From Pseudovirgaria hyperparasitica (lineage: Eukaryota; Ascomycota; Dothideomycetes; Acrospermales; Acrospermaceae), in contig NW_022985573.1 in the NCBI RefSeq assembly GCF_010093815.1, positions 63,685-127,684 on the forward strand: 64,000 bases of DNA, written 5' to 3'. Position numbers and translations under genes: made by a program. Shown piece after piece: positions 1 through 59,424 of this stretch; position 1 is the first letter of the stretch, and every line of letters begins with the position of its first letter. A model generated the notes under the pieces. It did no database searches. It saw nothing but the letters and a program-made list of their open reading frames with translations, and had not been told where the DNA came from.

Positions 1-1548
1 TATAGCGCCCGTTCGGGCTTAGATAAGTATAGATGCTTAGGCTTTCGTTAGCCCTTTATATATCTATTTACTCGGTTCCTTCTATAGCCCTCGAATCTAC
101 TCTAGGTACCTATTCTACTAGGAGGTCTAGTAGGCACGGAGTGCCTCTTTCTACTTATCTTAAGTCCACGACCGCATGTTTTTCACGAGTTCTTAAAGGC
201 TCTACCGGTCTAGGAGAGCGTCCGGGTTATCTCGGACTTCTTATACTACTTAGCTAGAGTCGGCTTCTATTAAGCACCTGTACCGTATTCGATTCCGGCC
301 TATATATAGGAGTGCGCGGTAATATATGCTGATTTATGCGCGTAGCGCGGCGAAAGTGTATTCTACGTTTCCTATACGTTTCTATACTTATTATTTAGTA
401 AAGTATACCACCCTCTATGTCTAGTAGAAGTTATATATACTTATAACGTCTGTCTCGCGTCGTAGTAGCACCGTGTTAGTAGCTTTATATGCGCCTAATA
501 TAAGACGGAGTATACGGTTCTATATGGATTCGAGCTTTATTCGCCTAGTCTATATAAGGGCCGTGTACTAGCACTCGTGTCTATACGTAAAGGCGGGTCG
601 TGCTATAGATATATATAGCTAGCGTACCTTATCCCGGGCGGTTCCCTATATGGAGACTATAATCTATCGTATGGCGGCTTCTACCCGGAGGGCCCTAGAG
701 ACGGTGTATACTACTTATGGTCCCCATTTAAGCTTGCTATCTAGTATAACTCCGAGCGCGTGTATACTTTATACTAGTAGTTCGTTAAATGCGTCGATTC
801 GGGGGCGTCGTTCGCCTTCCCTAGTTATCTATTTCCCTTAACGATTGATAAAGTGTATAAGCTAGTATTTCTCCGGGGCGAACTTTGCTCCGTGGCGTTT
901 TACCTACTAGAGGCACCTCTTATAGTCCTATTCTAGTCTTCTACACGTTCGGTTAGTATTATTATCGATAGCTAGGAGGTATGTATTATCAGCGTATCCA
1001 ACTACCTCTATATACTTCATTCCTTAAAGAAGGTCTACCATAAAGAAGAGGAATAGGATTAGAGAGATGGTGCTCCCTTATAGGATGCCGTATACCGTCT
1101 CTTTATATTCGCTTTGGTATCTAGGGATATATATCTAAGTTGTTCTTCCTATGAGGAATGACTATATAAAGCGTGTAATCTATTCTAGTATTCGTCTTAT
1201 CCGGAGGTTATGAATAAGTCTTATATGGTTTACCTTATTAAACGCTCCGGCCATATCGAGGGAGAGGAGCGATACTACCCGTCTCTACTTCTATGCGGCC
1301 TAGACGACTTCGATAATATATTAGATAGCTATTATTAGGGAGCTATCTACCTTTACCTTCTAGTTCGGAGGGAGGAGATTATGTTTCTATGTCGCGGTGC
1401 TTATCTTCTTCGCTATTATAGTCTCTAGTATCTTACCTAGGTAGAAGAGAAGGGCGATTAGTCTCCATCCCTTTAGGGAGTTAGGGCTCTTTCCTAGTTT
1501 CGGGAGCATAATAGTATGGGCGACTCGGAAGTACTAGGGGTAGTACCC

Positions 1549-1779
1549 CTACGTGACGCATGCTTGGAATATACGAGTAATAAGCGGTAGGGTCGCCTTT
1601 ATAGTTCTTTTTAGGCATCGATTTAGAATTCCATCTGGTCCGGGTGCTTTGTTATTTAGGAGTATCTTAATAATGTTAAGTATATCCTCCTCCGTAACTT
1701 CTTCGGGGATATCTACTATATATAGGTATTCGGCGTCGTGAACGTCTAATAGGTCTACTAGTTCTAGGAGAGGGAACAT
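1549..1779 (-). pseudogene. LINE reverse transcriptase fragment (finger/palm start)
   Basis: This is the longest sense-strand open piece of LINE copy A, 76 codons. It carries the non-LTR RT motif NNKAPGPDGI followed by LNRCLKRTI, the conserved start of the RT domain. The same stretch in copies B (about 16,600) and C (about 55,370) is less open. It is a relic of the element's ORF2, not an independent gene. Confidence 0.8.
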
Positions 1780-4423
1780 GGCCTCCTGTAGGGCCTTAGT
1801 TTTCTTAAGGCTCGTGGAGTATGTTCTCCCCTAATATATTAGGGGAGGTATAAGTGGCGGGGGTGTCGGAGTATCTACGCCCTTGGCCCATTTCGCTATA
1901 CGCTATAGCCCTATTACGTGTCGTGTCTATTAACTAGTAATTATACGCTACTATTTACGCCTTTTGTTACGGAGGACTTTATCGCGTTATCGTATCGCTT
2001 CCTTCTATTCTTCCTACGACTCGAGTGTTCTCATACGGTATATACGTCTATATAGCCTTCGGGCGTCTTATCTACTTTCCTATACTTAAGGAATCCCCTT
2101 TACTTCCGGGGGCTAGTATATTTGGTATAGTACGTGTTTATTTCTCGCATTCTAGTATATTTATAGGAGTGTCTATACGGCCTGGTCTATGGCTAGGTTA
2201 TTAGATACATCGACTATAGAGGGATCTAAGATCGCTGATTCTAGGTCCTTTAGGTACTTTTCCTAGTCGGTGTCCTTCTATATCCATCGTCCCCGTTATT
2301 TATTCGGGGTATATACGTTTATTACGGTTTCCATATATTCGTGGTCGGAATCCGTCTATACCTAGCCTAGGCGGTAGTATTAGATCCGGTGACTAATGTA
2401 CTCCGTGGCGAAGGTAAGGTTAAGCGTAGACCCGTCTTCGTCCTATTTATGTTTTTTCTATATAACTTATTCTATAGGTGTAAGTAGGTATAGGAAGTCG
2501 TGGTAGCGGGTGTGTAGTTCCCTTACTCTAAGTTCTTCCCTAACTACGGCTAGGCCTCCCTACTATCGGTAGTAGAGGTTAAAGTCTCCTAGGAGGATGT
2601 GTTACCCTGGTTCCGTGGTACCCTCGAGCATCTCGTCTAGTATAAGTATACGTTATTAGTTATATATATTATATATATATAGGGGGCCTATATCTATTTA
2701 TAGGTGTAGTATTATCCTAAGGTTATCGCGCTCGGTGTACGACCATAATAAGAGTGGTATTGATCTATGAATATGGAAGAGGACTTGTCTTTCTAGTCCT
2801 AGAGGGTATATAGTATGGTATCCGGGGTGTGTGGTTGGTTTACTCGTCTAGTAGTATTTATAGGGTTCCTAGATAGCGAGTATTATGGCCCTAGTCTCTT
2901 TAAGGAGCGTCGCCTAGTTCTCTCTTTTATATTATACGTTTATCTATATAATTTAGAGTATATTCTAGTCCCTTATTAGGTACTAGGGAGTATATATACC
3001 TATATACTTATTTCTCGGAGGCGCGACTATCCTCGCGCGGCAGCGGCTTTAACTATGCCTTTTAGTCGTCCTATCGTCTTCGGGATAATCTACTATCCCG
3101 CCTAACTACCTTCCGGAGGGGAGGTTAGGGGTGTTATAAAGGAAGGGCCCGAGGTAGGTGTTATATTCTATAACTATCTCGCGCCTCTCGCTTTTATCGT
3201 ACGAATATATTCTATAACCTATTTATGTTTTATACACGTTAACGACTATAACGGGTATTTCCCGTCGTAGTTTAAATACTATACTATGTCCCTGTTTCTT
3301 AGCCCTTCTCCTCGCGGTTTATAAGGGCACTCCTAGGTGGCGTGGTCCCCACGGCACTATCCGCACTTAGTCTTCTATAAGTACCTTTGTGTAGTATATC
3401 CATACCCTTAATAGTTAAAGTACTATATTATTGCCCATGCCCTATCCCATGGCTCGGCCATAAGGAGCTCTCCTTCTACTAGGAATCCCTCCTATATAAT
3501 ATGTTATGCGAGGGCGGGGTCTCGGAGCTCTATAATTATAGTAGAGTGTTTTTTCGCCGTCGTCTTAATCGCCTATAGATTCTTCTACCACGCTTTTACG
3601 ATCTTAATCCCTAGGTATTTTCGCGCGTTAGATTATTCTATACGCGTAATATCCTCCGCTCCGATAGCCTATCCCTACACGGGTACTAAGTGTATCTATA
3701 TCGGGTATATGGCCGCCCTAATAGAGGCGCCTAGGAAGATGCTACTAATCGCGTTCGGATCGCGCGAGATAGTCTACTACGCGATATTTGTTATCGTGGT
3801 AAGTACTACTCCTCCTAGCGTGAGTTTAGCGGCAACGATATTTAACTATATTCCCTTTTATTTATTAATCTTACTTACTATGTCCTTTGGGGATGCTCGC
3901 TGGACCTATACTAGGGTATCCTTATCCTAGATTACGACGCGTATACTACACGCCGCGTCGCTAGTCCGGGGGGCCCGTGGTATAGCTTCCGGTGTTACTA
4001 CTATTTATACCCATGTACTAGGGCGCTTACCTTAAGTGAGTTCCTCCTGGATTCTATATAGGCTGGCCTCTATTTGGTCGAGCCTACCCTCCGGTCCTCC
4101 TGGTTATGTCTTCTTCTCCTCCTCTATAATTCCCCTTAGGTTCCGGATAAGGTTCTAGAATATATATAGGAGGGTCTTCTGGCCCTCTCCGGCTTCCTTC
4201 TCTATACGTGCTACCTAGTAGTTAATATAATCTAGGAGGGTTTCCCCTCTCGGGGTCCCCTTTATTCCGCCTATCTATAGCGGCGTGCGCCTTTAGGTGT
4301 GTTCTACGTTTTAGATAGGTGTATAGCTACCCTTAGTAATATCGCTATATGGCCTTTTCTATCGTACCGGTAGGGGTATATCCGGTATATACCGGGGTAT
4401 GTCGGTGCCTAAGGCCGCTATAT

Positions 4424-4454
4424 TTATTAGTTAAGGGCTGCCCTTAACTAATAA
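4424..4454. repeat. 31-bp perfect palindrome near the 5' end of LINE copy A
   Basis: Two 15-bp arms (TTATTAGTTAAGGGC and its reverse complement) flank one central base. In element orientation this copy has A in the centre, while the equivalent palindrome in copies B and C derives from T. The arms have stayed perfect in otherwise RIP-mutated DNA. Confidence 0.9.
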
Positions 4455-4690
4455 AAGGGGGTCGGCGTGTCGGCGTTCTAGTAGCGTGGTCCGTGCCTCT
4501 ATCTCCGTAAGGATTTTAAGAGGGTGTGTATGTATCTTTACACGGCGATAACGTCTTGGTTTCGACGCTGCACGTACGTGCGTGTGGTAGTAGTTAGTGT
4601 ACTCGGTATACTCTATTAATTGAGGTGTGTATCTCGCTATATTACCCCGAATGGACCAAGTTAGCCTCTTGCGTTCGGGTTTATCGAATT

Positions 4691-5425
4691 TATCTAGCTT
4701 CTATATATAGGGAGTTTAGGGAGCGCTATAAGCTCTTTCTAGAGGTTATTAAAGTATAAGTTTAGAAACCGTTAATTATTATTAACCTTAGCTTATAATT
4801 TTTAGTTACTACGAGATTCCTAGTACTTAGACTATCTATTCTAGAGAGTTAGTTTTAGCTACTAAGGCCGCGGAAGAGATTTATACTATTTCTTTCTATC
4901 CGCCTTATACTACTAACGGATCTTATAAGAGATCTACTAGTTCTTCTTCTAAGTTACCTTATAAGAGAGTATATATTCTATTCTAGATTATTCTAGACCG
5001 TGTTAGCTAACTTTAGATCTAGTTACTCCGCTCTAGCGCTTAGTCGTTATCTTACTAGGCTCTAACTAAGCACGTAGTTACTCTAGAGGATAAGGTCTCT
5101 AACCTCTATTACTCTATTACTTAGTTAGTTCGTTTACTATACTCTAAGAGTAATAATAAGATAGAGAAGTAGCTCTATAGCTCTGTTTACTAGGGTTTCT
5201 ATATAGTATATATTAGCTCTATCTACCTAGTTTCTATCCGTTTTAATCCTTTTTAGACTATTTAGATATCTATCTACTAGTTTTCTAGTAATTTAATTCT
5301 TAACTTAATAATATTATATATATTCTTATTTATTCTATAACTATTAAATTCTAGGTTCTAATTTCCTTTAAGTTACTTAAGTATAGATATTATATATAAA
5401 TTAATTTATCTCTCTAAATTATATT
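4691..5425. other. RIP-degraded sequence of unknown origin
   Basis: AT-rich, CpA-depleted DNA between LINE copy A and the tRNA-like hairpin. The plus strand shows stretches with few stops other than TAG between about 4850 and 5350, as if an old plus-strand coding region lay here. No family was recognised. It could be the part of an older element into which the neighbouring Gypsy element inserted. Confidence 0.4.
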
Positions 5426-13573: not shown

Positions 13574-13806
13574 AAACTTCTCATACCCTAACGGACTAAA
13601 CTAGTTAATTCGGGGTAAAACAGCGATTTATATACATTAAACGATAGAGCATACCGAGTATAACAACCTCCGACACACGTATATACGTATAGCGTATAAT
13701 ACGCGACGATACCGACGTATAGAGATACTATATATATACGCTTAAAGACTCTTTAATAATATAAGCATAGACTATATCTAATAAATACTAACACGCCGAC
13801 CCCCTT

Positions 13807-13837
13807 TTATTAGTTAAGGGCTGCCCTTAACTAATAA
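13807..13837. repeat. 31-bp perfect palindrome, 5' region of LINE B
   Basis: Same 15-bp arms as at 4424-4454, with T as the central base. It lies about 235 bp from the element's 5' end. Confidence 0.9.
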
Positions 13838-16800
13838 CTATAGCGGCCTTAGGCATTATAATACCCCGGTATACGCCGGATATACCCCTACTAGTACGGT
13901 AGAAACGGCCATATAGCGATATTAATATAGATAGCTAGATACCTATCTAAAATATAGGAACTAACTAAGGGTACGAAGCGCTATAGATAATCTAGACTAA
14001 GGGGACCCTAAGAGGGGAGACCCTTCTAGATAAAATTAAATACTAGGTAATACGTATAGAGAGGGACGCCGAGAAGGGAAAGAAGACTCTCCTTTATATA
14101 TTCCGGGACCTTATCTAGAACCTAAGAGGAATTATAGAGGAAGAAAGGAAGTTACTATAAGAGGAACCTAGTAGTAGGCTCGACCGAATAGAAGCTAGTC
14201 TACGGAGAATCTAGGAAGAGCTATTCTAAGGTAAGCGCCCTAATACGTGGGCTTAGATTATAGTAACACCCGGAGCCACCGTACTAAGGACTACTAGAAC
14301 CATAGATAGAGTATATAGTATACGTATTATAATCTAGGATAAGGACACGCTAGCGTAGGTCTAATAGGCATCCCTAAAGGAAATTATAAATAAGATTAAC
14401 GAATAGAAAGAAATATAGTTAAGTATCATAGCTACTAAAGTTATACTAGGTGGGATAGTACTTACTACTATAATAAATACTATATAGTAAAACATCTTAC
14501 GAGATCCGAACGCGATAGGTAGTATCTTCCCTAGCGCGTCCATTAGGGTAGCTATATACCCGATTATAGTATACGTAGTACCTATATAGGGATAGGCTAT
14601 CGAAGCGGAGGATATTACGCGTATAGAATAATCTAATACGCGAAAATACCTAGGGATTAAAATCGTGAAAGCGTGGTAGAAGAACCTATAGGCGATTAAG
14701 ACGACGGCGAAAAAACACTCTACTATAATTATAGAGCTCCGAGACCCCGCCCTTATATAATATATTATATAGGAGGGATTCCTAATAGAAGGAGAGCTCC
14801 TTATGGCCGAGCTATAGGATAGGGCATAGGTAATAATATAGTACTTTAACTATTAAGGGTATAGATACACTATATAAAGGTACTTATAGAAGACTAAGTA
14901 CGGATAGTACCGTAGGGACCATGCCATCTAGAAGTACCCTTATAAACCGCGAGGAGACGGACTAAGAAATAGGGATATAGTATAGTATTTAAACTACGAC
15001 GGGAAATACCCGTTATGGTCGTTAACGTGTATAAAACGTAAATAGGTTATAGAATATATTCGCATGATAAAAGTAAGAGGCGCGAGATAGTTATAGAATA
15101 TAACACCTACTACGAGCCCTTCCTTTATAATACCCCTAACCTCCCCTCTAGAAGGTAGTTAGGCGGGATAGTAGACTATTCTAAAGACGATAGAATAACT
15201 AAAAGGCATAGTTAAAGCCGCTACCGCGTAAGGATAGTCGCGCCTCCGAGAAATAAGTATATAGATATATATACTCTCTAGTACCTAATAAGGGACTAGA
15301 ATATACTCCGAATTATATAGGTAAACGTATAATATAAAAGAGAGAACTAGGCGACGCTCCTCGAAGAGACTAGGGCTATAATACTCGCTATCTAGGAACC
15401 CTATAAACACTACCAGACGAGTAAACCAACTATATACCCTGGATACTATACTATACACCCTCTAGAACTAGAAAGACGAGTCCTCTTCTACATTTATAGG
15501 TTAATACCACTCTTATTATAGTTATATACCGAGCGCGATAACCTTAGGATAACACTACACCTATAAATAGATATAGGCCCCCTATATATATATAATATAT
15601 ATAATTAATAATATATACTTATACTAGACGAGATGCTCGAGGGTACTATAGAACTAGGGTAACATATCCTTCTAGGAGACTTTAACCTCTACCACTAATA
15701 GTAGGGAGGCCTAGCCATAGTTAGGGAAGAACTTAGAGTAAGGGAACTACGTACCCGCTATCACGACTTTCTATACCTACTTATACCTATAGAATAAGTT
15801 ATATAGAAAAAATATAAATAGGACGAAGACGGGTCTATACTTAACCTTACCTTCGCTACGGAGTACATTAGTTACCCGATCTAATACTACCGCCTAGGCT
15901 AGGTATAGACGGATTCCGACCACGAATATATAGAAACCGTAATAAACGTATATACCCCGAATAAATAACGGGGATAATAGATATAGAAGGATACTAACTA
16001 GGAAAAGTACCTAAAGGACCTAGAATCGGCGATTCTAGATCCCTCTATAGTCGATATATCTAACGACCTAGCTATAGACTAGGCCATATAGACACTCCTA
16101 TAAATATACTAGAATGCGAGAAATAAACACGTACTATACTAAATATACCGGCCCCCGGAAGTAAAGGGGATTCCTTAAGTACGGGAAAGTAGATAAGACG
16201 CCTAAAGGCTATATAGACGCGTATACTATACGAGAATACCTAAGTCATAGAAAGAATAGAAGGAAGTAATATAATAACGTGATAAAGTCCTCTATAACGA
16301 AAGGCGTAAATAGTAGCGTATAATTACTAGTTAATAGATATAATACGTAATAGGGCTATGGCGCATAGCGAAATGGGCTAAGGGCGTAGACACTCCGACA
16401 CCCCCGCTACTTATACCTCCCCTAATATATTAGGGGAGAACATACTCCACGGGCCTTAAGAAAACTAAGGCCCTACGGGAGGCTATATTCCCTCTCCTAG
16501 AACTAGTAGACCTATTAGACGTTTACGGCGCCGAATATCTACACGCGGTAGATATCCCTAAAGAAGTTATAGAGGAGGATATACTTAATATTATTAAGAT
16601 ACTCCTAAATAATAAAGTACCCGGACTAGATTAAATTCTAAATCGATGCCTAAAAAGCACTATAAAAGCGACCCTACTACTTATTACTCGTATATTCTAA
16701 GCATACGTCACGTAGGGGTACCACCTCTAGAGCTTCCGAGTCGCCTATACTATTATACTTCCGAAACTAGAAAAGAGCCCTAACTCCCTAAAGGGATAGA

Positions 16801-18583
16801 GACTAATCGCCCTTCTCTTCTATCTAGGTAAGATACTAGAGACCACGATAGCGAAGAAGATAAGTACCGTAGTATAGAAATATAATCTTCTCCCTCCGAA
16901 CTAGAAGGTAAAGATAGATAGCTCTCTAATAATAGCTATCTAATATATTATTAAAGTCGTCTAGGCCGTATAGAAATAGGGACGGGTAGTATCGCTCCTC
17001 TCCCTCGATATAGCCGGAGCGTTTAATAAGGTAAACCATATAAGACTTATTTATAACCTCCGGATAAGATAAATACTAGAATAGATTATACGCTTTATAT
17101 AGTTATTCCTTATAGGAAGAATAACTTAGATATATATCTCTAGGTACTAGAGTAAATATAAAGAGACGGCATGCGGCATCCTATAAGGGAGCACTATCTC
17201 TCCGATTCTATTCCTCTTCTTTATAGTAGACCTTCTTTAAGGAATAAAGTATATAGAGGTAGTCGGATACGCCGATAATATATACCTTCTAGCTATTAAT
17301 AATAATACTAACCGAACGTGTAGATAACTAGAATAGGACCACGAGAGGTGTCTCTAGTAGGTAAAACGCTATAGAGTAAAGTTCGCCCCGGAGAAATACT
17401 AGCTTATATACTTTATTAATTATTAAGGGAAATAGGTAACTAGGGAAGGTAAATAACGCCCCCGAATCGACGTATTTAACGAACTACTAGTATAAAGCAT
17501 GCGCGTGCTCGGAGTTATACTAGATAGTAAGCTTAAATAGGGACTATAAGTAGTATACGCTATCTCTAGGGCCCTCTAGGTAGAGACCGCTATACGATAG
17601 ATTATAGCCTCTATATAGAGAACCGCCCGGGATAAGGCACGCTAGCTATATATATCTATAGCACGACCCGCCTTTATATACGGACACGAGTGCTAGTATA
17701 CAGCCCTTATATAGACTAGGCGAATAAAGCTTAAATCTATATAGAACCGTATACTCCGTCTTATATTAGGCGTATATAAAGCTACTAATATAGTACTACT
17801 ATAACGCGAGATAGACGTTATAAGTATATATAACTTCTACTAGATATAGAGGGTAGTATACTTTACTAAATAATAAGTATAGGAATATATAGGAAACGTA
17901 GAATATACTTTCGCCGCGCTATATATATAAATTAGTATATATTACCGCGTACTCCTATATATAGGCCGGAATTAAATATAGTATAGGTACTTAATAGAAG
18001 CTAACTCTAGCTAAGTAGTATAAGAAGTCCGAGATAACCCGGACGCTCTTCTAGACTAGTAGAGCCTTTAAGAACTCGTAAAAAATATATAGTCGTAGAC
18101 TTAAGATAAGTAGAAAGAGACACTCTATGCCTACTAGACCTCCTAGTAGAATAGGTACCTAGAGTAGATTTAAGGGCTATAGAAGAAACTAAGTAAATAG
18201 ATATATAAAGGGCTAACGAAAGTCTAAGTATCTATACTCATCTAAGCCCGAACGGGCGCTATAGAACTTCTATACTATATCTATAAGAGAGGCGTTTCTA
18301 ATACCTCCCTATAGTATAAGACGTACGGCCGGAGAGGTATAATACGCCACTATCTAGCTATATACCCTAACCTCTATATATAACGGTAATAGCTTATCTA
18401 TATTATAAAGACTTTAGATATTATATAATAGCTTAATAAGTACCCTAAGGACGTCTCCCGATAGATACTTATATATCTACTACTCCTCTAGTACTAGTAG
18501 ACCCAGAAATATATACCAGAAGAGACCCGGTATACGCCAGTAGTAACCCGATATATACCAGAAGAACCCCAGGAGAACCCCGA

Positions 18584-18614
18584 TTATTAGTCGAGGGCAG
18601 CCCTTAACTAATAA
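18584..18614. repeat. Palindrome near the 3' end of LINE B (slightly eroded)
   Basis: Same palindrome as in the 5' leader but with A in the centre. Two bases of the left arm differ from perfect symmetry. It lies about 310 bp from the 3' end. Confidence 0.85.
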
Positions 18615-18785
18615 CCTCCGCACCTACACGTACTACCTAAGGGTAAAATAATAGTAATATAGGCTATAGGCTAATAGGCGTACCCTATAGCTATATACTT
18701 AAGACGAAATAGAGGTTTAACAAGATATAGTTATAGATATAAGGAAGTTTTTCTCTATAGGGTTTCTTCTTATATAGTAGCTTAG

Positions 18786-18811
18786 ACTAGAGGAGGCATA
18801 GGCCTATAGAG
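18786..18811 (+). repeat. LINE 3'-end block shared with the SINE-like element at 48.7 kb
   Basis: This 26-bp block begins ACTAGAGGAGGC and ends CCTATAGAG. It matches 48697-48722 (minus strand) with three mismatches. It sits just before the CCTAGTTA-plus-TTA tail in both elements. Confidence 0.85.
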
Positions 18812-18832
18812 TACTACTCTACCTAGTTATAT

Positions 18833-18834
18833 AA

Positions 18835-18898
<64 letters not shown>
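18833..18898 (+). repeat. (TTA)n tail of LINE B
   Basis: About twenty TTA units close the LINE. Copy C has the same tail with about seven units, and the SINE-like element at 48.6 kb ends in the same repeat. Confidence 0.95.
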
Positions 18899-21900: not shown

Positions 21901-23790
21901 GCCAGTGCTGCCAGACGTGAAGACAAGATTGAGCATATCAGAGGGCAGTACCTGCGGTAGTGTGCGCCATGTGTTTAGAGTGGATTTATCCGTCAGTGGC
22001 TCATCCATAATTGCAACCCGCCCAGTAGTCAAGCGATGGGCGAGGCTTTCGTTAGCTTCTGAGGTTAGTATAAGGACCGGACTTATTTGCCTTATAATGC
22101 TAAGGAGTCTATGCTCCGGTTGAGCAGAATCAAGGACGATCGATGCACCGCCAGCTTTCATAACCGCAAGCATGGCTACAGGCATCCATTTCGACTTCTC
22201 AATACACAGTGGTACGATTACTCCGGGCTTTACTCCTTGATCCATAATCTGGTGGGCCAAACAGGTGGACAGCTCGTCGAGCTCAAGATAGGTCCATTCG
22301 CCGTCCCATGCACAAATAGCCTGAGCCCCTGGTTGAGACCTCCTGGTTGAGACCTCGTTGTTTCGGCGATCAAACTATGTACGACGGAGCTCTCCGCATC
22401 AAATGGCACATTCTGGTTCCAGCGCCAAATCTGTTCGAGGTCCTATTGCGACACAAAGTCCAAGTTTTCGAGTCTTGTTTGGGTAAATCGGACATCGCAC
22501 AGCTGATGCACGATAGGTCCTAGCTATTGAATGAGAAGTACCACTTGGTCGGCATCTAGCACGACAGAGTCGAATCGGACCGATGGATATCTCTACACTA
22601 TCGTCATTTAGTTAGCACTCCAAGGACAGCGTGTACGTGCGGAACTCCGCCACTTCATCCTTAAACCGCGCCCGATACTGACTGTCAGTCTTAAAAAGAC
22701 TATCCAGGACATCTTTGTCCTCTCTTTCTATGCTAGGTTGAATTACAAGTAGAGAGTTAAAGTCGCATGCTCTTGCAGCCTGCGGGCTGACACGGCGGAT
22801 TGTTTAAAGTCCAGTATGTTCGTATTCGATCATGCTAACAGCCTAATACTAAATTTAAAGAAGAAGGTCTTACATACTCATAGCTGGATCCATAATAATT
22901 CTTAAAGGTACTGTAGCGATGGTCGGTCCGGTAAGCTGTTGTACGCCGGGAAAGGCTATCTATCTATCGCTCACAGTGACACCAAACAGAGTATCCTTTG
23001 AGTTAGTGTATTTCGAGCTTAGAATGCTCCATGCAGCACGAAGGACGACACTCGGTGCCACACCGGCTTGGCTTGGCCATTCTAATCCGTTAATAGCGAC
23101 CGTTTTTGCCTCATTAGACCTCAGCTGATAATCTGGCGAAGGTAACAGAGGAAATAGTTCTGCCTTAAGATTCTCAAACTAAGAGGACCAAAACCTGGTT
23201 AGTTCATCCTCCGGTAGAGCTTTAATATGCTTTACGAAAGCCTGAAATTGAGGTGGTACCGCATGAGGCAATCCTTTGCTCGGGTCCTGTGCTAAATGAT
23301 AGGCCGTGGCAAGTTGTTCAAAGAGAATGGTCTTCGACCAACCATCGTACACTGCATGGTGGAGTGTCTAAATAAAAAAGCTCTGCGACAGCTCCGCATC
23401 TGCGTGAGTTTCTTGCAAGACAGCAGATCGCACGAGTGGCAGTCCCAGACCCGTAAGTGCTGAGCGATCCAAGTCAAGATACTCAACAAGTATCATGTTT
23501 ACAGTTTGGCAGGCGTGCAGTGTTGAATGTTTCGTGACCACCACTTGAACCAGTCCTCGTGTCGGGATATCAATAATTCGTGTGCGAAGTATCGGATTTT
23601 CTGCTACTACTCGAATCCATGTGACCCGTAGACATTGAATGTCAATTATAGGTAACAATCGAAATGCATAGCGGGCGACGTAATCTCCTGGATGCTTTGC
23701 CGTAAGCGCAAGGAAATACATCTTCGATATCGGCAGCTTCGACCCTATAAGCGGTAATTACTACTAATTCCAAAGGAATCATAAAAAGAT
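18916..23790 (-). pseudogene. Nonribosomal peptide synthetase remnant (C-A-T-C plus start of next A)
   Basis: On the minus strand an upstream condensation-domain remnant (about 23.79-22.4 kb, with HHAVYDGWS) leads into a large open block of 1,114 codons (22260-18916). That block has an adenylation domain with LVFTSGSTGEPKG, NLYGPTE, YKTGDLARY and PSGKTNRRK motifs. A thiolation domain around DSISAMRL follows, then a second condensation domain with HHALYDSWS, then the first residues of another adenylation domain. No terminal thioesterase or reductase is present. Reading frames are broken at several places, and the 3' part is lost next to the transposon block. The original enzyme would have been multimodular; its product cannot be told from this piece. 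Treated as a fossil gene. Confidence 0.88.
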
Positions 23791-31773: not shown

Positions 31774-32014
31774 TTCATCTTCTATCTTCTATCTTCTATC
31801 TTCTATCTTCTATCTTCTATCTTCTATCTTCTATCTTCTATCTTCTATCTTCTATCTTCTATCTTCTATCTNNNNNNNNNNNNNNNNNNNNNNNNNNNNN
31901 NNNNNNNNNNNNNNNNATCTTCTATCTTCTATCTTCTATCTTCTATCTTCTATCTTCTATCTTCTATCTTCTATCTTCTATCTTCTATCTTCTATCTTCT
32001 ATCTTCTATCTTCT
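31774..32014 (+). repeat. Heptanucleotide microsatellite (TATCTTC)n with an assembly gap
   Basis: A nearly uninterrupted array of TATCTTC units, with 45 Ns at 31872-31916 inside it, so its true length is unknown. It creates a long false ORF in all plus-strand frames, because 7 bp is not a multiple of 3 and the unit contains no stop. Confidence 0.97.
31872..31916. other. Assembly gap (45 N)
   Basis: Run of N inside the heptamer repeat, probably collapsed or unresolved repeat copies. Confidence 0.99.
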
Positions 32015-48102: not shown

Positions 48103-48107
48103 ACGGA
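48103..48107. repeat. Target-site duplication ACGGA, left (Copia)
   Basis: ACGGA directly abuts the left LTR and recurs at 59420-59424. Confidence 0.9.
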
Positions 48108-48269
48108 TATTATTAGTAGAAAGTAGACGTGATTGAGGTCATTGAATGTATTCTGTAATTGTGTGTAGAGAACTAAGTTCTGGGAGACAGAGTCGAAGCT
48201 ATTTAACCGTTTAGACACTAGTCCCGTTTAGGAAGTAGTATCTCTTACTTAAAGTACCTTCCGATAACA
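48108..48269 (-). repeat. Copia LTR (3' LTR of the minus-strand element)
   Basis: 162 bp. On the minus strand it starts TGTTATCGGAAGG and ends CTACTAATAATA. It pairs with 59258-59419. Confidence 0.93.
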
Positions 48270-48279
48270 CTCCCCCATA
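48270..48279 (-). other. Polypurine tract of the Copia element
   Basis: Minus strand TATGGGGGAG lies immediately before the 3' LTR, the expected place for plus-strand DNA priming. Confidence 0.75.
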
Positions 48280-48622
48280 CTAAGTATATATATATATACT
48301 TAGTAATATTAGAATAAAGGAAAGCTTAAAGTAAGTAATAGTAAGAGATAGTACTAAAAGAATAAAGGAAAGAGTAGTACAAGTAAGATAACTCTACTAT
48401 AAACTAATTATCGTCTTTATTTAATTTAGTAGTAGTAAGGGTAGTTCTTTTATTCCTATATTAGTAATATTATTATAACTTATAATATACTAAATAGATA
48501 TAACTCTATTAGTAAATAATTCTTAAACCGCGTAATAGTATATCGCGATATATTTAGACCGTACTATGATTTACTAGTTTCGGATAAGGGCTATTATAGC
48601 TTAATTATCCGTAAGAAGATAG

Positions 48623-48634
48623 AGAACTAGAATA
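48623..48634. repeat. Target-site duplication, left (SINE-like element)
   Basis: AGAACTAGAATA, identical to 49580-49591, adjoining the TTA-type tail. Confidence 0.8.
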
Positions 48635-49579
48635 ATAATAATAATATTAATATTAGTGTTTAACTAGGAAGAACTATATATATAGCCATATATATGCTCC
48701 ATAGGCTTAGGCCTCCTCTAGTATTGGCTGCTATATATATAAGAAAACCTCCTATGATTAGCTCCCTAACTAGACCCTATTACTAACCTAACCTAGCCTA
48801 GTCTAAGTCCTCGAATCCTATTAGGTGATAAACTTACTTCTTATCCTTATATTAGGCTTTTATTACTATATTAGTACCGGCTCTTAATAACGCCCTAACT
48901 AACTATAGTAGGTATTACCTTTCTTATGATTAGGTAGGTCGCTAGGCTAGGCCTAGTCTTTTATTCCTATATTACCGTGTTTTTTCCTATCCATGGGAAT
49001 ATAGCTTTACGCCGGGTAGTAGTTATTAATTAAGATGACTAATGCCGGAGGGGGTATATATCTAATAGGTCCATGCCTTAGCACTAACCCTAGCTAGGCC
49101 GAATTCGGAAATTATTCTTCGGGGCTATATAATCGTCTATAGATAGGCGGGATACTTAATTAGGTATTACTATCTATTTCGTGGTTACCGAGCCGGAGTA
49201 AGCGCGAGCTAAGCCGGATTAGGGTGGACAAGGCCCTAGTATATAGTGAAAATTCTATGATTCGAGCTAAGCTAGTTATGGGTCTAGCTACTCTAGGCGT
49301 CGCTCTACCACTTAAGGTGGCTTAGTAGGTGGCTATATTAGGTAATTCTCATTATATAATAACGGTATAGTCATTTTCATATTACCTAATGGTCGCTTAG
49401 GACTAAGTAGTTATATAACGGTAACCTTCACGTCACGTGCTCGCTTAGCCCCGTATACTTTTTAATAGAGTGTGCGAAAACTAGTACATAAAAAGGTGGC
49501 CGTTATAGGATTCAAACCCACGACGTTGGATAACAAACGCTTCTAGTAACGTAGTACACTACCACTACGCCACCTGGCT
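48635..49579 (-). mobile_element. SINE-like element: tRNA-derived head, LINE-homologous 3' end, (TTA)n-type tail
   Basis: Bounded by a 12-bp duplication. Read on the minus strand, it opens with a tRNA-like segment (49579 to about 49497): A box TGGCGTAGTGG (49572-49562), B box GGTTTGAATCC (49518-49508), then CGGCCACC and a T-run. The acceptor stem does not pair fully, so this is not a working tRNA gene. The last 100 bp match the 3' end of the LINE family here. The 26 bp at 48722-48697 match LINE B 18786-18811 with three mismatches, followed in both by CCTAGTTA and TTA repeats. About 740 bp of unknown body lies between, making it long for a SINE. Inserted into the Copia fossil, so younger than it. 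Confidence 0.75.
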
Positions 49580-49591
49580 AGAACTAGAATA
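49580..49591. repeat. Target-site duplication, right (SINE-like element)
   Basis: AGAACTAGAATA, identical to 48623-48634, adjoining the tRNA-like head. Confidence 0.8.
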
Positions 49592-52317
49592 TTATAATTT
49601 ATAAAGATCTCTTTTATATCTAGTAGAGCCTACTATAAGTAACTTATAGCCTTTAAGTAGGCTATATACTCTACTTTATATATCGACTTAGTAATATATA
49701 ATTACCTCTTACTATTCTAGGCTACTAAGCTTCTATTTAATTAAAGAATATATATAGAGATAGACTTAGCGGTATTAGAATCTAAACCCTAAGAAGTATC
49801 TAAGAATATATTAATTTCTATTACGCCTTTAGACTTCTTTAGTATAAGATATTAGTCAATAGTATACTTAATATATTATAATATACTAAAGGCTATTTAA
49901 GTATATTACTCTAATAGATTCATATTAAAAGTAGCATATATTCTAACTATAAAGGCAAGATCTAGACGCGTACTAGTAACGAGATAATTAAGTAACCTAA
50001 TTAGTTATATATATATAAGCTAGCGTTCTTAATTAATAATTTCTTCCGATCTTATTAGAAAGGTATTTATATTAACTAGAGTCTTTCTACTATTATAATC
50101 TATTATACTAAACCTTTTTAGAATACGTTAAGAGTAAGCCTTTTAAGAAAGCTTAATTTAGTCTTCTTAAGATTAATTAATCTTAATATCTAATATTAAG
50201 CGCGCTTCTCTAAGATCTTTATATTTTATATATTCTATAATCTATTACTTAAAGTATTGAATATAAGGTTTCTCCCCTATAAGTAGTAGGTTATTAATAT
50301 AGATAGTAATAATAATATATCTAATAAAGATATATAGATTAAACTATAACTATTAGAATTTAAGAGATTAAAGGAGGTTACGTAAGGTATAAAACTATTT
50401 CTAACTAGATTATTTTAATCTATAAATTACCTTTTAGAGCTTAAGAATCTTACCTGGTTTTTTAAAGCCTAGCGGGTATCGTATATAGATATTTTTAGAT
50501 AGACTACTATTTAGATAGATAGTATTAAAATCGATCTAGTAAACATGCTTATTAAATTATACGGCCTATTAGAGTATAATATAAAGAGAATTATATTTAA
50601 TAATAGATATAAAAGTTTTATTATAATTAAGACCGTATTTCTATGTAAAGCCCTATATAATAAGACGTACCTTATAAACTTTAGTATTATCCGTAGTAGT
50701 CTTAATATTAAATATCTATCTAGAGCTAACTATTATAGAGACATTTATAGTAAGCGGAGCTTCCTACTATAATTAATTAATCTTATAACTTCTTAGCTCT
50801 TTTTTAATAGCTATTTATAACCAATACTAATTAGAAGAATTCCTAGTCTCTTTTAGGTTCGAAGGAACGTCTATATTTAAGGTAGTATTAACTAATAGGG
50901 TATAGATTATTTCCTTCTCTTCTATATCTACTAAATTTATAGAGTTATTAAAATAAATTATATACTTGCGTTTCCTCCTAAAACAAGATATATTAGAAGG
51001 TAATCTTAATAAATATAGATTTTCGTGTAGTAGGTTATAGCTAGAGAAAGATTCGAATTTTAGTTAATTTACCCTAGGTATAGTAGAAGGCGTCCTACTA
51101 TAAGAAAGGGTAGATAATCTTCGTTAGGATATCTTAGTAAGACTTATTATATCTTCTATATAGAGCTAGAGGTTCTATATATTTTAGACTACGACTAGTA
51201 TATTATAAGATACTCCTCTATTATCCGACTCTTCTTTAGAGCTATCTCTTTCTATAATAAATAAGGAAAGAGGTTACTATAGAAGTAGTCTCGGACTAAA
51301 GGGTACGAAAGTAACATCTTATAACTTAATAATAACCTTACGGTTAGGAATATAGTACTTATAGATTTTATCTAATTTACTATAGCTAACTAGAATACCT
51401 TTCTCTAATCTATAGAGGAGCTTACTATCTAGCTTTTATACTTCTTTTAGGATATATATATACTCTAAATAGATATAAGTTTTAGATAGAAGGCTTCTTA
51501 CTAAAGAGAGTATAATATAGCATGTTAACTATTAGAAGAGAGGTATATAGTATAATATTCTTAATAAACGTTATTATATAAATTACTTTAGCCTAGAATT
51601 TTAACTTAGTATTAGAAGAGAGAATAGATCTTACTAATGTCTAAACTATACGGTTAAACCTTTCGGCTATTCCGTTTAACTTATAAGAGTAGATAGAAGA
51701 GGTAATATATATAGTACTAGTCTTATAAAAGAAGTCTTAAAGACTTTTAGTAATATACTTACCGCCTCGATTAGATACGAATTCTTTAATATCTATATTA
51801 AACTACTTCTTAATATATACGAAGAACTATATAATAATATTAGGAGCTTCTAACTTATACTTTATAAAGCGGACCTATATAAAGCGAGTTAATTCTTTAA
51901 TAAAGGAGATATAGTACTATAACCTATTTAGAGACTTATACGGTATTTTACTAGAGAGGTCGCTATAAACTCTACTAAACCGTGTCTTATATTACCTATT
52001 CGAGCTTAAAGGTTTCTTATATATAGATTTAGATATACTATAACTCTTATAGTAGAAGTTACTTAGCCGCTTAGGAATTATATTAAAATCTTTATAAAGT
52101 CTTTTAGAATTTATAATATAATAATAATCTATAGTATAATAGAATTCTTTATATAATATAAAGTATACTATAGTATATAATAGAAGTAGAGAAGATATAT
52201 AGCGTAGGTAAATCTTCATAAGGCCCTTATAGAATTTTACCTATATTACTTTAGATCCGTAGTAGTTATATAAGAAGAGGTTATTCCCTTTTACTCTTAA
52301 ACTATACCCTTAATTTC

Positions 52318-52332
52318 TAATATATAACTAGG
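52318..52332. repeat. Target-site duplication, left (LINE C)
   Basis: TAATATATAACTAGG, identical to 57613-57627. Confidence 0.92.
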
Positions 52333-52567
52333 GAAACTTCTCACACCCTAACGGACTAAACTAGTTAATTCGGGGTAAAACAGCGATTTACATACATTAA
52401 ACGATAGAGTATACCGAGTATAATAACCTCCGATACACGTGTATATATATAGTATATAATACGCGACGATACCGACGTATAGAGATACTATATATATACG
52501 CTCGAAGACTCTTCGATAACACGAGTATAGACTATATCTAATAAACGCCGACACGCTAACCCCCTTT

Positions 52568-52598
52568 TATTAGTTAAGGGCTACCCTTAACTAATAAC
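52568..52598. repeat. Palindrome in the 5' leader of LINE C (one mismatch)
   Basis: Same 31-bp palindrome with one base changed near the centre (GGGCTACCC). Confidence 0.88.
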
Positions 52599-55500
52599 TA
52601 TAGCGGCCTTAGGCATTATAATACCCCGGTAGACGCCGGATATACCCCTACTAGTATAGTAGAAACGGCTATATAGCGATATTAATATAGATAGCCAGAC
52701 ACCTATCTAAAATATAGGTACTAACTAAGGGTGCGAAGCGCTATAGATAACCTAGACCGAGGGGACCCCGAGAGGGGAGACCCTCCTAGATAAAATTAAA
52801 TACTAGGTAATACGTGTAGAGAGGGACGCCGAGGAGGGAAAGAAGACCCTCCTTTATATATTCCGGGACCTTATCCGGAACCTAAGAGGAATCATAGAGA
52901 AAGAAAGGAAGTCACCACGAGAGGAACCTAGTAGTAGACTCGACCGAATAGAAGCCAGCCTACAGAGAATCTAGAAAGAGCTATCCTAAGGTAAGCGCCC
53001 TAACACGTGGGCTTAGATTATAGTAATACCCGGAGCTACTATACTAAGGACCACTAGGACTATAGATAGAGTATATAGTATACGTATTATAATCTAGGAT
53101 AAGAACACGCTGGCGTAGGTCTAATAGGCATCCCTAAAGGAAATTATAAATAAGATTAATAAATAGAAAGGAATGTAGTCGAGCGTCGTAGCTACTAAAG
53201 TTACGCTAGGTAGGGTAGTACTTACTACTATAATAAATACTACGTAGTAAAACATCTCGCGAGATCCGAACGCGATAGGTAGTATCTTCCCTAGCGCGTC
53301 TATTAGGGTAGCTATATACCCGATTATAGTATACGTAGTATCTATACGGGGATAGGCTATCGGAGCGGAGGATATTACGCGTATAGAATAATCCAACACG
53401 CGAAAATACCTAGGGATTAAGATCGTAAAAGCGTGGTAGAAGAACCCATAGGCGATTAAGACGACGGTAAAAAAACACTCTACTATAATTATGGAGCTCC
53501 GAGACCCCGCCCTCGCATAATATATTATATAGGAGGGATTCCTAGTAGAAGGAGAGCTCCTCATGGCCGAGCCATAGGATAGGGCATAGATAATAATATA
53601 GTACTTTAACTATTAAGGGTATAGATACACTATATAAAGGTACTTATAGAAGACTAAGTGCGGATAGTGCCGTAGAGACCACGCTACCTAGGAGTACCCT
53701 TATAAACCGCGAGGAGACGGACTAAGAAATAGGGATATAGTATAGTATTTAAACTACGACGGGAAACACCCGTCGTAGTCGTTAATATATATAAAATGTA
53801 AATAGATTATAGAATACATTCGCACGATAAAAGCGAGAGGCGCGAGATAGTTATAGAATATAATACCTACCACGGGCTCTTCCTTTATAATACCCCTAAC
53901 CTCCCCTCCGGAAGGTAGTTAGGCGGGATAGTAGACTATTCCGAAGATAATAGGACGACTAAAAGGCATAGTTAAAGCCGCTACCGCGCGAGGATAGTCG
54001 CGCCTCTAAGGAATAAGTATATAGGTATATATACTCCCTAGTACCTAATAAGGGACTAGAATATACTCCGAATTATATAGGTAAATATATAATATAAAAG
54101 AGAGAACTAGACGACACTCCTCGAAGAGACCAGGGCCATAATACTCGCTATCTAGGAACCCTATAAATACTACTAGACGAGTAAACCAACCATACACCCC
54201 GGATACTATACTATACACCCTCTAGGACTAGAAAGACGAGTCCTCTTCTATATTTATAGGTTAATACTACTCTTATTATGGTCGTATACTAAGCGCGATA
54301 ACCTTAGGATAACACTATACCTATAAATAGATATAGGCCCCCTATATATATATAATATATATAACTAATAACGTGTACTTATACTAGACGAGATGCTCGA
54401 GGGTACCACGGAACTAGGGTAATATATCCTTCTAGAAGACTTTAACCTCTACTACTAATAGTAGGGAGGCCTAGCCGTAGTAAGGGAAGAACTTAGAGTA
54501 AGGGAACTACGCACCCGCTACCACGACTTTCTATACCTACTTACACCTATAGAATAAGTTATATAGAAAAAACATAAATAGGACGAAGACGGGTCCACGC
54601 TTAACCTTACCTTCGCCACGGAGTATATTAGTTACCGGATCTAATACTACCGCCTAAGCTAGGTATAGACGGATTCCGACTATGAATGTATAGAAACCGT
54701 AATAAACGTATATACCCCGAATAAATAACGGGGACGATAGATATAGAAGGATACCGACTAGGAAAAGTACCTGAAGGACCTGGAATCGGCGATCCTAGAT
54801 CCCTCTATAGTCGATATATCTAATAACCTAGCTATAGACCAGGCCGTATAGACACTCCTATAAACATACTAGAATACGAGAAATAAACACGTACTATACT
54901 AAATATACCGGCCCCCGGAAGTAAAGGGGATTCCTTAAGTATAGGAAAGTAGATAAGACGCCCGAAGGCTATATAGACGCGTACACCGTACGAGAATACC
55001 CGAGTTATAGAAAGAATAGAAGGAAGTAATATAATAACGCGATAAAGTCCTCCGTAATAAAAGGCGTAAATAGTAGCGTATAATTACTAGTTAATAGACA
55101 TGATATATAATAGGGCTATAGCGCATGGCGAAATAGGCTAAGGGCGTAGACACTCCGACACCCCCGCTACTTATACCTCCCCTAATATATTAGGGAAGAA
55201 TATACTCCATAGGCCTTAAGAAAACTAAGGCCCTACGGGAGGCTATATTCCCTCTCCCGGAACTAGTAGACCTATTAGACGTTTACGGCGCTAAATATCT
55301 ATATACGGTAGATATCCCTAAAGAAGTTACGGAGAAGGATATACTTAATATTATTAAGATACTCCTAAATGATAAAGCACCTAGACTAGATGGAATTCTA
55401 AATTAATGCCTAAAAAGTACTATAAAAGTAACCCTACCGCTTATTACTTATATATTCTAAGCATGCGTCATGTAGGGGTACCACCCCTAGAGCTTCCGAG

Positions 55501-57343
55501 TCGCCTATACTATTATACTCCCGAAGCTAGGAAAGAGCCCTAACTCCCTAAAGGGATAGAGACTAATCGCCCTTCTCTTCTACCTAGGTAAGATACTAGA
55601 GGCTATAGTAGTGAAGAAGATAAGTACCGCGGTATAGGAATATAATCTCCTCCCTCCGAACCAGAAGGTAAAGATAGATAGCTCTCTAATAATAGCTATC
55701 TAATATATTATTAAAGTCGTCTAGGCCGTATAGAAATAGGGACGGGTAGTATCGCTCCTCTCCCTCGATATGGCCGGAGCGTTTAATAAGGTAAACTATA
55801 TAAGACTTATTTATAACCTCCGGATAAGACGAATACTAGAATAGATTATACGCTTTATATAGTTATTCCTTATAGGAAGAATAACTTAGATATATATCCC
55901 TAGGTACTAGAGCGAATATAAAGAGACGGTATACGGTATCCTATAAGGGAGCACTATCTCTCTAATCCTATTCCTCTTTTTTATGGTAGACCTTCTTTAA
56001 GAAATAAAGTATATAGAGGTAGTCGGATACGCCGATAATATATATCTTCTAGCTATTAATAATAATACTAACCGAATGTATAGACGACTAGAATAGGACC
56101 ACGAGAGGTGCCTCTAGTAGGTAAAACGCTACGGAGTAAAGTTTGCCCCGGAGAAATACTAGCTCATGCACTTTATTAACCGTTAAGGGAAATAGATAAC
56201 TAGGGAAGGCGAATAACGCCCCCGAATTAACGTATTTAACGAACTACTAGTATAAAGCATACGCGCGCTCGGAGTTATACTAGATAGTAAGCTTAAATAG
56301 GGACCATAAGTAGTATACGCCGTCTCTAGAGCCCTCTAGATAGAAGCCGCTATATAATGGATTATAGCCTCCACGTAGGGAACCGCCCGGGATAAGGCAC
56401 GCTAGCTATATATATCTATAGTACGACCCGCCTTCACGTACGGACACGAGTACTAGTATATAGCCCTTATATAGACTAGGCGAATGAAGCTCGAATCCAT
56501 ATAGAACCGTATACTCTATCTTATATTAGGCGTATATAAAGCTACTAACACGGTGCTACTACGACGCGAGATAGACGTTATAAGTATATATAACTTCTAC
56601 TAGATATAGAGAGTAGTATACTTTACTAAATAATAAGTATAGAAATATATAGGAAACGTAGAATATACTTTCGCCGCGCTACGTGTACGAATTAGTATAT
56701 ATTACTATATACTTCTATATATAGGCCGGAATTAAATACGGTATAGGTGCTTAATAGAAGCCGACTCTAGCTAAGTAGTATAAGAAGTCCGAGATAACCC
56801 GGACGCTCTTCTAGACTAGTAGAGCCTTTAAGAACTCGTAAAAAATATACGGTCGTGGACTTAAGATAAGTAGAAAGAGGCACTCCGTGCCTACTAGACC
56901 TTCTAGTAGAATAGGTACCTAGAGTAGATTCGAGGGCCATAGAAGGAACTAAGTAAATAGATATATAAAGGGCTAATAAAAGCCTAAGCATCTATACTTA
57001 TCTAAGCCCGAACGGGCGCTATAGGACTCCTATACTATATCTATAAGAGAGGCGTTCCTAATATCTCCCTATAATATAAGGCGTACGGCCGGAGAGGTAT
57101 AATATACCACTATCTAGCTATATACCCTAACCTCTATATATAACGGTAATGGCTTATCCACGTTACGAAGACTTTAGATATTATATAATAGCTTAATAAG
57201 TACCCTAAGGATGTCTCCCGATAGATACTTATATATCTACTACTCCTCTAGTACTAGTAGACCCGGAAATATATACCGGAAGAGACCCGGTATATACTAG
57301 TAGTAACCCGATATATACCGGAAGAACCCCGGGAGAACCCCGA

Positions 57344-57374
57344 TTATTAGTTAAGGGCAGCCCTTAACTAATAA
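57344..57374. repeat. 31-bp perfect palindrome near the 3' end of LINE C
   Basis: Central base A, perfect arms, about 240 bp from the 3' end. It is the exact reverse complement of the 5' palindrome of copy B. Confidence 0.9.
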
Positions 57375-57612
57375 CCTCCGCACCTATACGTGCTACCTAA
57401 GGGTAAAATAACGGTAATATAGGTTATAGGCTAATAGGTGTACCCTATAGCTATATACTTAAGACGAAATAGAGGTTTAACGAGATGTAGTTATAGATAT
57501 AAGGAAGTTTTTCCCTATGGGGTTTCTTCTTATATAGTGGCTTAGACTAGAGAAGGTATAGGCCTATAGAGTACTACTCTACCTAGTTATATAATATTAT
57601 TATTATTATTAT

Positions 57613-57627
57613 TAATATATAACTAGG
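57613..57627. repeat. Target-site duplication, right (LINE C)
   Basis: TAATATATAACTAGG, identical to 52318-52332. Confidence 0.92.
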
Positions 57628-59240
57628 AGAAAAGGTATATAGAATTTAGTTACTTACTAAAGAGGATATTAGTAAGTTTAACCTTTTTTATAGAACCGTC
57701 TAAGAGAATATAATCTAGGAAAACTATTCTAATACTATTAATAGGAATCTTCTAATAATTTATAATTAATATATTACTAGAGGTGCGTGGTTCTAGTAAG
57801 GTAAAGTTATCTATATAACCCGATATATATCGTAATACACCTAAATCGAAGATCTAGTTATATACGTCTACGGTTACATTAGAATTCGTAAGAAGTCTAA
57901 TAGCTTTAATACTTAGATCCGAAAATATTACTAAAATAAGAGGCTAACTTACTACTCGAGATCGCTTACTATTTATATTAGCTTTAGTTACGAAGAAACT
58001 AACGACGTTATTATTAGAGTTAGATTCGGAATCTAAAATTTCGATAACTTTAGCCTTATTAGCTTTTTATCGCTTGCTTAAGAAGTCCTTTTTAGAAGAC
58101 TTCTTATCTAACTTATTTTTAGACTTATTATTATTCTTAGAAGCCTTAAGCTTACGGTAGTTCTAATACTTATAGCCTTTAGAAGAGAAGCCGCGTTTCT
58201 TATACTAGGTGCATTTAATATTAGAGATAGAAGCGGAGGTAGAGAAGGAGTTAGACTTCTTTAACTTAGAAGGCTAACTAGACTTACCCTTATAGCTTAC
58301 CTTATAGCTAGTAGTATCGGATTTAATACTATATTTCTTAGCTAGATTAAGTATCTTTAGCTCGATGTCTTAAAATTATAATATATCTTAAGTTAATAAA
58401 TTATTAATAATATAGTCTATAGTATTAGGTAATAAGATAAGAAAGAATAAACCCTTAACCTCTTTAGACTTAAAAATTAGACGTATTACTTTTATGACTA
58501 TATAAGATAAAGTAGCGTATCTTTTTACTATTTGTATCTAGGTATAATAGAAATTATTAATATATTTATAGATATCTTCTCTGTCTTTATAGCGGAGGTT
58601 AGCGAGTAATCTAAATAGATATATTAAAGAATTACCTATATCACGGTCGAAACGTAATAATAGATAACTCTATATAGCTACTACTATATTATAGAAAGTA
58701 AGATCTATAATAAGATCTTAATATATTAACGAGAGTAATATAATTATTATCTTATTATTCTTTATATTTTAATCTATTATATCTATATATAAATCCGTGA
58801 CTCTAGTACTAAAGGGTCTAATAACCCTACTAGAGACTATTATCTATAATTATATATATTTAAATATAATTATCTAAGCTAATCTCTACTCGGGGAAATT
58901 CTCTCCTCTTAAAGATAGCTTAGATAGAGAGAAAGGGTCGAGTTTGAAATTAATAGACATGGTTATTAACAAGTTTCTCGGGTTCCTTCTCTTTCTTTAT
59001 ATAGGACTTATTCTAACTCTTTCTATTTATTACGTATTCGTAAGAAAGATAGTAAAGGTAAAAGAGATAGGAGGACGGTATAGAGGACGATATAGAGGCC
59101 GGGAGTTAATAAGGTAGTAGAATTAAAGTAAAACTTTAATAAGATTAATAAGACAACTAAGTTTTAGAGAAGGGACTTGCTTTTATTAAAATATAATAGT
59201 TTTTATTAATAAAGAGGTGTTTTAAGGCTTTTATAGTAAA

Positions 59241-59257
59241 GCGCCGGGCTTATAACC
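59241..59257 (-). other. Copia primer-binding site
   Basis: Minus strand GGTTATAAGCCCGGCGC directly follows the 5' LTR. It resembles the GGTTATGGGCCC site used by Copia elements with an internal initiator-tRNA(Met) fragment as primer. Confidence 0.65.
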
Positions 59258-59419
59258 TATTATTAGTAGAAAGTAGACGTGATTAAGGTTATTAAATATA
59301 TTCTATAATTATGTGTAGAGAACTAAGTTCTAGGAGACAGAGTCGAAGCTATTTAACCGTTTAGACACTAGTCCCGTTTAGGAAGCAGTGTCTCTCACTC
59401 AAAGTACCTTCCGACAACA
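59258..59419 (-). repeat. Copia LTR (5' LTR of the minus-strand element)
   Basis: 162 bp, starting TGTTGTCGGAAGG on the minus strand. It differs from the left LTR by about 12 transitions and no indels. Confidence 0.93.
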
Positions 59420-59424
59420 ACGGA
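59420..59424. repeat. Target-site duplication ACGGA, right (Copia)
   Basis: Matches 48103-48107. Confidence 0.9.

Follow-up and report, generated by a model that had tools for sequence, protein, structure and literature searches.

A probable tRNA-headed SINE with a LINE-like 3' end, inserted in a Copia element of a fungal genome

Results

Nested retroelements at the locus

The 64-kb window, i.e., the whole stretch of DNA analysed, contains a nested retroelement cluster at positions 48108-59419, in which a Copia element encloses a SINE and a LINE copy (LINE C) and the order of events is readable. The Copia element (48108..59419, minus strand) is degenerate, with an RVT_2 match at E 1.3e-34. 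Its two 162-bp LTRs, at 48108-48269 and 59258-59419, are 93% alike, and the 5-bp duplications ACGGA on its two sides (48103-48107 and 59420-59424) are intact. Elsewhere in the window, a RIP-degraded Gypsy-type LTR element occupies 4750-9200 on the minus strand, with RVT_1, RT_RNaseH_2, RT_RNaseH and Tf2-1-like SH3 domains and an integrase zinc domain below the cut-off. At 31777-32011 there is a 7-bp tandem array (ATCTTCT), broken by an N run that is probably an assembly gap.

The SINE is 945 bp long and lies on the minus strand at 48635..49579, exactly the coordinates proposed in an earlier note on this DNA, with a perfect 12-bp target duplication, also claimed there, abutting both ends. The duplication reads TATTCTAGTTCT on the 5' side (49580..49591, minus) and is identical on the 3' side (48623..48634, minus). 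When two 12-mers were drawn at random from the Copia host DNA, identical pairs occurred 2 times in 200000, and 8 times in 200000 given a slack of 8 bp. The first bases of the duplications of the SINE, LINE B and LINE C could belong to the tails, and the true lengths may be a few bases shorter.

Upon removal of the SINE and one copy of the duplication, one Copia frame runs through the join, with RIP stops read as residues. Since the frame is continuous without the SINE, the SINE came as one piece. By its motifs, the joined frame seems to resemble the RNase H part of pol; searches gave no confirmation of this name, with one weak DUF match in Pfam (E 0.0064, below the cut-off) and, among PDB sequences, an unrelated best match at E 0.48. 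No Copia copy without the SINE was found elsewhere in the window. Given the single 12-bp duplication that encloses the whole and the Copia frame that is continuous without it, 48635-49579 is one retroposed unit and not a tRNA relic beside a LINE scrap.

The SINE shows no protein-coding capacity, the longest stop-free stretch in six frames being 53 codons, although stops due to RIP could hide a former frame. Within the 64-kb window, no second copy of it was found. The body of about 740 bp between the head and the 3' block gave only short matches elsewhere in the window: SINE nt 606-623 are identical to 48446-48463 of the Copia part (18/18, E 0.004), and nt 704-723 match Copia 48447-48466 at 95% of 20 positions (E 0.014). 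These two matches may reflect chance in AT-rich DNA or a common motif. Scans of non-fungal collections yielded 0 loci, both for the 3' core (viral_contigs) and for the head (viral_contigs and genome_contigs), a result of little weight given the nature of these collections. A D-arm-like string in the body (about 49255-49315) was suspected of marking a second tRNA-like unit; Rfam gave one chance-level, non-tRNA match there, and the candidate was rejected.

The tRNA-like head

The pol III A and B boxes that the earlier note placed at the head were found at SINE nt 8 and nt 62. The A box TGGCGTAGTGG (49562..49572, minus; SINE nt 8-18) has 0 mismatches to TRGYNNARNGG, and the B box GGTTTGAATCC (49508..49518, minus; SINE nt 62-72) has 1 mismatch to GGTTCRANTCC, this single mismatch being a change of RIP type. 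On both strands of the window, the SINE head is the sole A/B pair with 0 mismatches in the A box and at most 1 in the B box; one other place (36991, minus) carries an A box and a B box with 1 mismatch each. A pair of that quality appeared in 0 of 3000 dinucleotide shuffles of the SINE. In tRNAs, the A box begins at position 8, and the positions of the SINE boxes, counted from the 5' end as set by the duplication, are tRNA-like. The B box sits within a T-arm-like structure of a 5-bp stem and a 7-nt loop, and three acceptor-type pairs form. The fold of the head has a z of -1.65, with 10 of 200 shuffles doing as well; the first of its hairpins does not form a D arm.

ARAGORN called no tRNA gene in the window, and Rfam at gathering scores found no tRNA there either. 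None of the three relaxed-threshold Rfam matches on 1051 bases was a tRNA, and on 93 bases, with the best of the clan alone reported, Rfam gave tRNA-Sec at 12.3 bits (E 3.8), which is chance level. Permissive ARAGORN runs were tried and set aside: they returned 5, 3 and 7 scattered and mutually inconsistent calls, and on the strand of the head none spans the head without an intron. As no tRNA gene was called, the term tRNA head leans on the boxes, their position and the T arm, by which the head is judged to be tRNA-like.

Behind the head there is a run of five T (T5; 49490..49494, minus; SINE nt 86-90), the only run of at least five T on the SINE strand, where 0.54 are expected. We take this run to be a possible Pol III terminator, which could stop Pol III at about 90 nt. 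Because it follows the head, full-length transcription of the SINE by Pol III appears doubtful. The fifth T, which is followed by an A, may be a product of RIP, and this would soften the objection.

LINE copies in the window

Three LINE copies were recognized. LINE B (13574..18894, plus) and LINE C (52333..57612, plus) are degenerate and are flanked by 15-bp duplications, at 13559-13573 and 18895-18909 for LINE B and at 52318-52332 and 57613-57627 for LINE C, which adjoin the TTA tail. LINE A (1..4740, minus; 5' border approximate) is cut by the left end of the window. In Pfam searches with stops read as residues, RVT_1 was matched in all three copies (E 7.1e-21, 5.6e-21 and 2.2e-19 for A, B and C, respectively), and Exo_endo_phos_2 in two of the three at 22.1 bits, below the Pfam cut-off of 27.4 bits. 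There is no reading frame of at least 150 aa within the three copies, so none can encode a full enzyme as it stands. Scans with the LINE protein alignment gave 590 pattern hits in genome_contigs and 79 in viral_contigs (both non-fungal), of which 0 were confirmed in either collection.

Between LINE B and C, 3948 aligned bases contain 307 transitions and 3 transversions; for the last 500 bp the counts are 31 transitions, 0 transversions and a single gap of 5 columns. LINE A and B differ by 381 transitions and 20 transversions over 3947 aligned bases. In its 5' part (3983-4477), LINE A is 79% complementary to B and C, versus 90% over the main 4 kb, and this divergence hints at LINE subfamilies. 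A few bases beyond the right duplication of LINE B (18895-18909) lies a large frame on the minus strand (18916-22260), which has AMP-binding, PP-binding and Condensation domains and is nonribosomal peptide synthetase-like.

A 3' end in common between the SINE and the LINEs

LINE A runs off position 1, and only LINE B and C have their 3' ends inside the window. Thus, the 3'-end comparison rests on two LINE copies. Aligning the SINE 3' end to the LINE 3' ends, the check proposed in the earlier note, revealed a 54-bp block in common (48697..48750, minus; SINE nt 830-883), the best local match of which lies at 18759..18811 (plus) in LINE B. The alignment has 54 columns with 44 identities, 9 mismatches and 1 gap, i.e., 44 of 53 paired bases are identical. 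For the 3' stretches without tails the score was 56, and none of 2000 dinucleotide shuffles reached it (mean 23.8, maximum 40). When nearly all of LINE B (13574-18829) was compared, this block again gave the best match, at 56, with scores of at most 44 in 60 shuffles, and the other strand of the SINE scored 31. With the tail included, BLAST of the SINE against the 3' end of LINE B gave an E of 4e-9. The block is weaker in LINE C, with a score of 39 (the shuffles apply to the LINE B comparison alone) and a BLAST E of 0.05; CCTAGTTA plus the tail matched LINE C at E 3e-5.

The order of the parts is the same in the SINE and in the LINE: the block is followed by a differing segment, about 18 nt longer in the SINE, then by CCTAGTTA and by TTA repeats. 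In the SINE, CCTAGTTA and the TTA-type tail occupy 48635..48668 (minus), and LINE B and C have them in the same order. A consensus of the block core, built from the SINE and LINE B, was found in the 64 kb only in those two and in LINE C (2 mismatches), where 0 are expected. The earlier note had described a match of 26 bp with three mismatches, followed by CCTAGTTA and TTA repeats; the parts are real, and the length of the match is in fact 54 columns. Folding of two LINE 3' ends and one SINE 3' end for a conserved stem-loop, as in the stringent type of SINE/LINE pair, gave values not above those of shuffles (z 0.85, 1.02 and -0.87). Homology of the SINE 3' end to the LINE 3' end at the corresponding place is well supported by these comparisons of sequence.

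In the 3'-end alignment of the SINE with LINE B, 60 columns match, 6 are transitions and 7 transversions, and 20 are gap columns, spread over 5 gaps; with LINE C, 56 columns match, 10 are transitions and 7 transversions, and the gap columns again number 20, in 5 gaps. RIP accounts for transitions only, and the transversions and gap columns therefore call for another source: the SINE 3' end would either represent an old lineage of its own or belong to a related LINE subfamily absent from the window. LINE copies A-C appear to be relatives of the driver of the SINE and may not be the driver itself. The earlier note had named copies A, B and C as the driver, which sits poorly with these differences, given that LINE B and C have 0 transversions between them in their last 500 bp.

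RIP and relative age

The SINE shows the indices of RIP, with a TA/AT ratio of 1.69, a (CA+TG)/(AC+GT) ratio of 0.44 and a composite of 1.25. The second ratio, (CA+TG)/(AC+GT), is 0.08, 0.09 and 0.14 in three internal stretches of the Copia element. For comparison, composites of -0.53 and -0.42 were obtained for two gene stretches. The RIP signal ends abruptly where the Copia element ends: to the left of it the composite is down to -0.54, and to the right it is first 0.30, in a step that still includes 70 bp of LTR, and then -0.63. RIP of the SINE together with this confinement accords with the SINE being a repeat in its own right. As RIP is weaker in the SINE, the data suggest that the SINE was inserted into an already older Copia element. 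RIP acts on repeated DNA, and RIP of the SINE body hence suggests further copies elsewhere; leakage from the flanking Copia DNA is an alternative. RIP, together with the types of retrotransposon present, points to a filamentous fungus.

Discussion

We propose that the locus holds a tRNA-headed SINE with a LINE-like 3' end, which was mobilised in trans by enzymes of the LINE family into the Copia pol gene and then mutated by RIP. We assign this reading a probability of roughly 0.83. It builds on one unit within one duplication, a promoter-like head, a 3' end in common with the LINE, LINE B and C with the same tail and similar duplications, and an interrupted Copia frame, all of which are observed in the window. 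The core of the earlier note, a tRNA-headed SINE with a LINE-like 3' end, is well supported, with the boxes, the enclosing duplication and the LINE B match all present.

In the putative model, the SINE would be transcribed from its internal promoter, yielding an RNA whose 3' end, composed of the 54-nt block, CCTAGTTA and TTA repeats, would resemble that of the LINE family of the window. A reverse transcriptase of this family, or of a close sister, would recognise that 3' end in trans. The LINE reverse transcriptase and endonuclease would then copy the SINE RNA by target-primed reverse transcription into the Copia pol gene, and the insertion would leave the 12-bp duplication. Afterwards, the inserted SINE would be mutated by RIP. 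Further copies of the SINE would be expected elsewhere in the genome. Given the T5 run behind the head, a variant of the model is conceivable, which we regard as rather unlikely. In this variant, a complete tRNA gene was captured together with its own Pol III terminator, and the head makes only a short tRNA-like RNA. The retroposed 945-nt RNA would then stem from read-through or from Pol II, and the LINE partner would belong to a divergent subfamily not seen in the window, whose 3' end the SINE would have continued to match.

A one-off chimera, made when the reverse transcriptase left its LINE template for a cellular RNA that begins like a tRNA, with no SINE family behind it, seems very unlikely to us. 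Such retrocopies with target duplications are described in Magnaporthe in the excerpted text of PMC2104539, the SINE is a single copy in the window, and a long Pol III RNA is questionable given the T5 run behind the head. However, a new jump from the LINEs of the window should resemble them, which disfavours a fresh template-switch chimera: the 3' end of the SINE is set apart from that of LINE B by 7 transversions, 6 transitions and 20 gap columns, whereas between LINE B and C the last 500 bp show transitions and a single gap but no transversions, and even LINE A and B, with 20 transversions in 3947 aligned bases, have far fewer. The 3' part of the SINE is less like the LINE than the LINE copies are like one another, although it could still derive from a LINE subfamily not seen here. 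Moreover, the body of the SINE is RIP-mutated as a repeat would be.

About as unlikely, in our view, is a non-autonomous element that owes its mobility to the LINE and its RNA to Pol II, the polymerase reported to make Eg-R1 of Blumeria; the A and B boxes would then be a relic. The length of 945 nt and the T5 run behind the head would fit such an element, and Eg-R1, classified as a SINE, is said in the excerpts of PMC6022598 to be transcribed by Pol II and to contain internal poly(T). Against this, the A box of the SINE is perfect and the change in its B box is of RIP type, while Eg-R1 is said in the same excerpts to lack both boxes; furthermore, the fifth T precedes an A and could be a RIP change. 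Finally, two separate things in adjacency, a tRNA relic and a 5'-truncated LINE fragment, are scarcely credible: the head and the 3' block are likely of separate origin, but both lie inside one 12-bp duplication, the Copia frame runs on once the whole unit is removed, and the intervening 740 bp or so have no match in the window beyond short ones, so that the refuting case named in the earlier note, a LINE fragment beside a tRNA relic, is contradicted by the enclosing duplication and the Copia frame.

Our preferred reading, the SINE mobilised by LINE-family enzymes, has counterparts in other fungi. The earlier note knew of no described fungal example; pairs are in fact reported in Magnaporthe and Blumeria (excerpts of PMC3747384) and in Aspergillus fumigatus (excerpts of PMC5063351). 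The excerpts of PMC3747384 give two fungal SINE/LINE pairs, Mg-SINE with MgL/MGR583 and SINE2-1_BG with Tad1-24_BG, and distinguish stringent and relaxed types of SINE/LINE 3'-end recognition. Mg-SINE of Magnaporthe is, like the SINE of the window, of tRNA type with a 3' end that resembles a LINE of the same genome, MGL/MGR583, its 3' end being similar to that of MGL (PMC3747384 and PMC2104539, as excerpted). It measures 472 bp versus 945 bp here, a comparison by description only (PMC5063351, as excerpted). SINE2-1_BG of Blumeria is likewise of tRNA type with a tail that pairs with its LINE, Tad1-24_BG, again by description (PMC3747384, in part). AfuSINE2-1a of Aspergillus fumigatus has a 3' part like I-1_AF and ends in ACT repeats; paired with I-1_AF / I-4_AO, it has in common with our SINE a tRNA relation, an end like a LINE 3' UTR and a trinucleotide repeat, whereas AfuSINE2 has ACT repeats and 140-493 bp and the SINE of the window TTA repeats and 945 bp (PMC5063351, in the sections consulted).

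The earlier note also called a length of about 945 bp unusual. The excerpts of PMC5063351 list fungal SINEs of 700 bp (Egr1), 800 bp (mgsr1) and 900 bp (egh1, EGH24), and mgsr1 and egh1 come near our SINE, a likeness by length alone. Eg-R1 of Blumeria resembles it in being classified as a SINE and in having internal poly(T) stretches, comparable to the T5 run, and differs in being reported as a Pol II product without A and B boxes, both of which the SINE of the window has (PMC6022598, as excerpted). The MINE chimeras of Magnaporthe (WEIRD-MGL) likewise combine a LINE 3' end with target duplications; their 5' part is a non-coding RNA of unknown function, template-jumped onto true LINE sequence (PMC2104539, as excerpted), unlike the 3' part of our SINE, which has diverged from the LINE. 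A TTA tail was not met among the fungal pairs in the excerpts of PMC3747384 and PMC5063351. Among the literature matches listed, with Repbase and most subscription papers outside the search, no TTA-tailed element matching the SINE of the window was recognised, and its family may already be catalogued.

In summary, SINE/LINE 3'-end pairing is known in fungi, and the SINE described here is a good new example, not a new kind; the known picture is unchanged, such pairs having been reported in three fungi. It offers a clean fungal case of a SINE parasitising a LINE via a common 3' end, in which partner-type LINEs, the host element, the target duplications and the frame of the empty site are all readable in one window. 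With 44 of 53 bases conserved next to a freely changed segment, the block is a candidate recognition region for the LINE reverse transcriptase.
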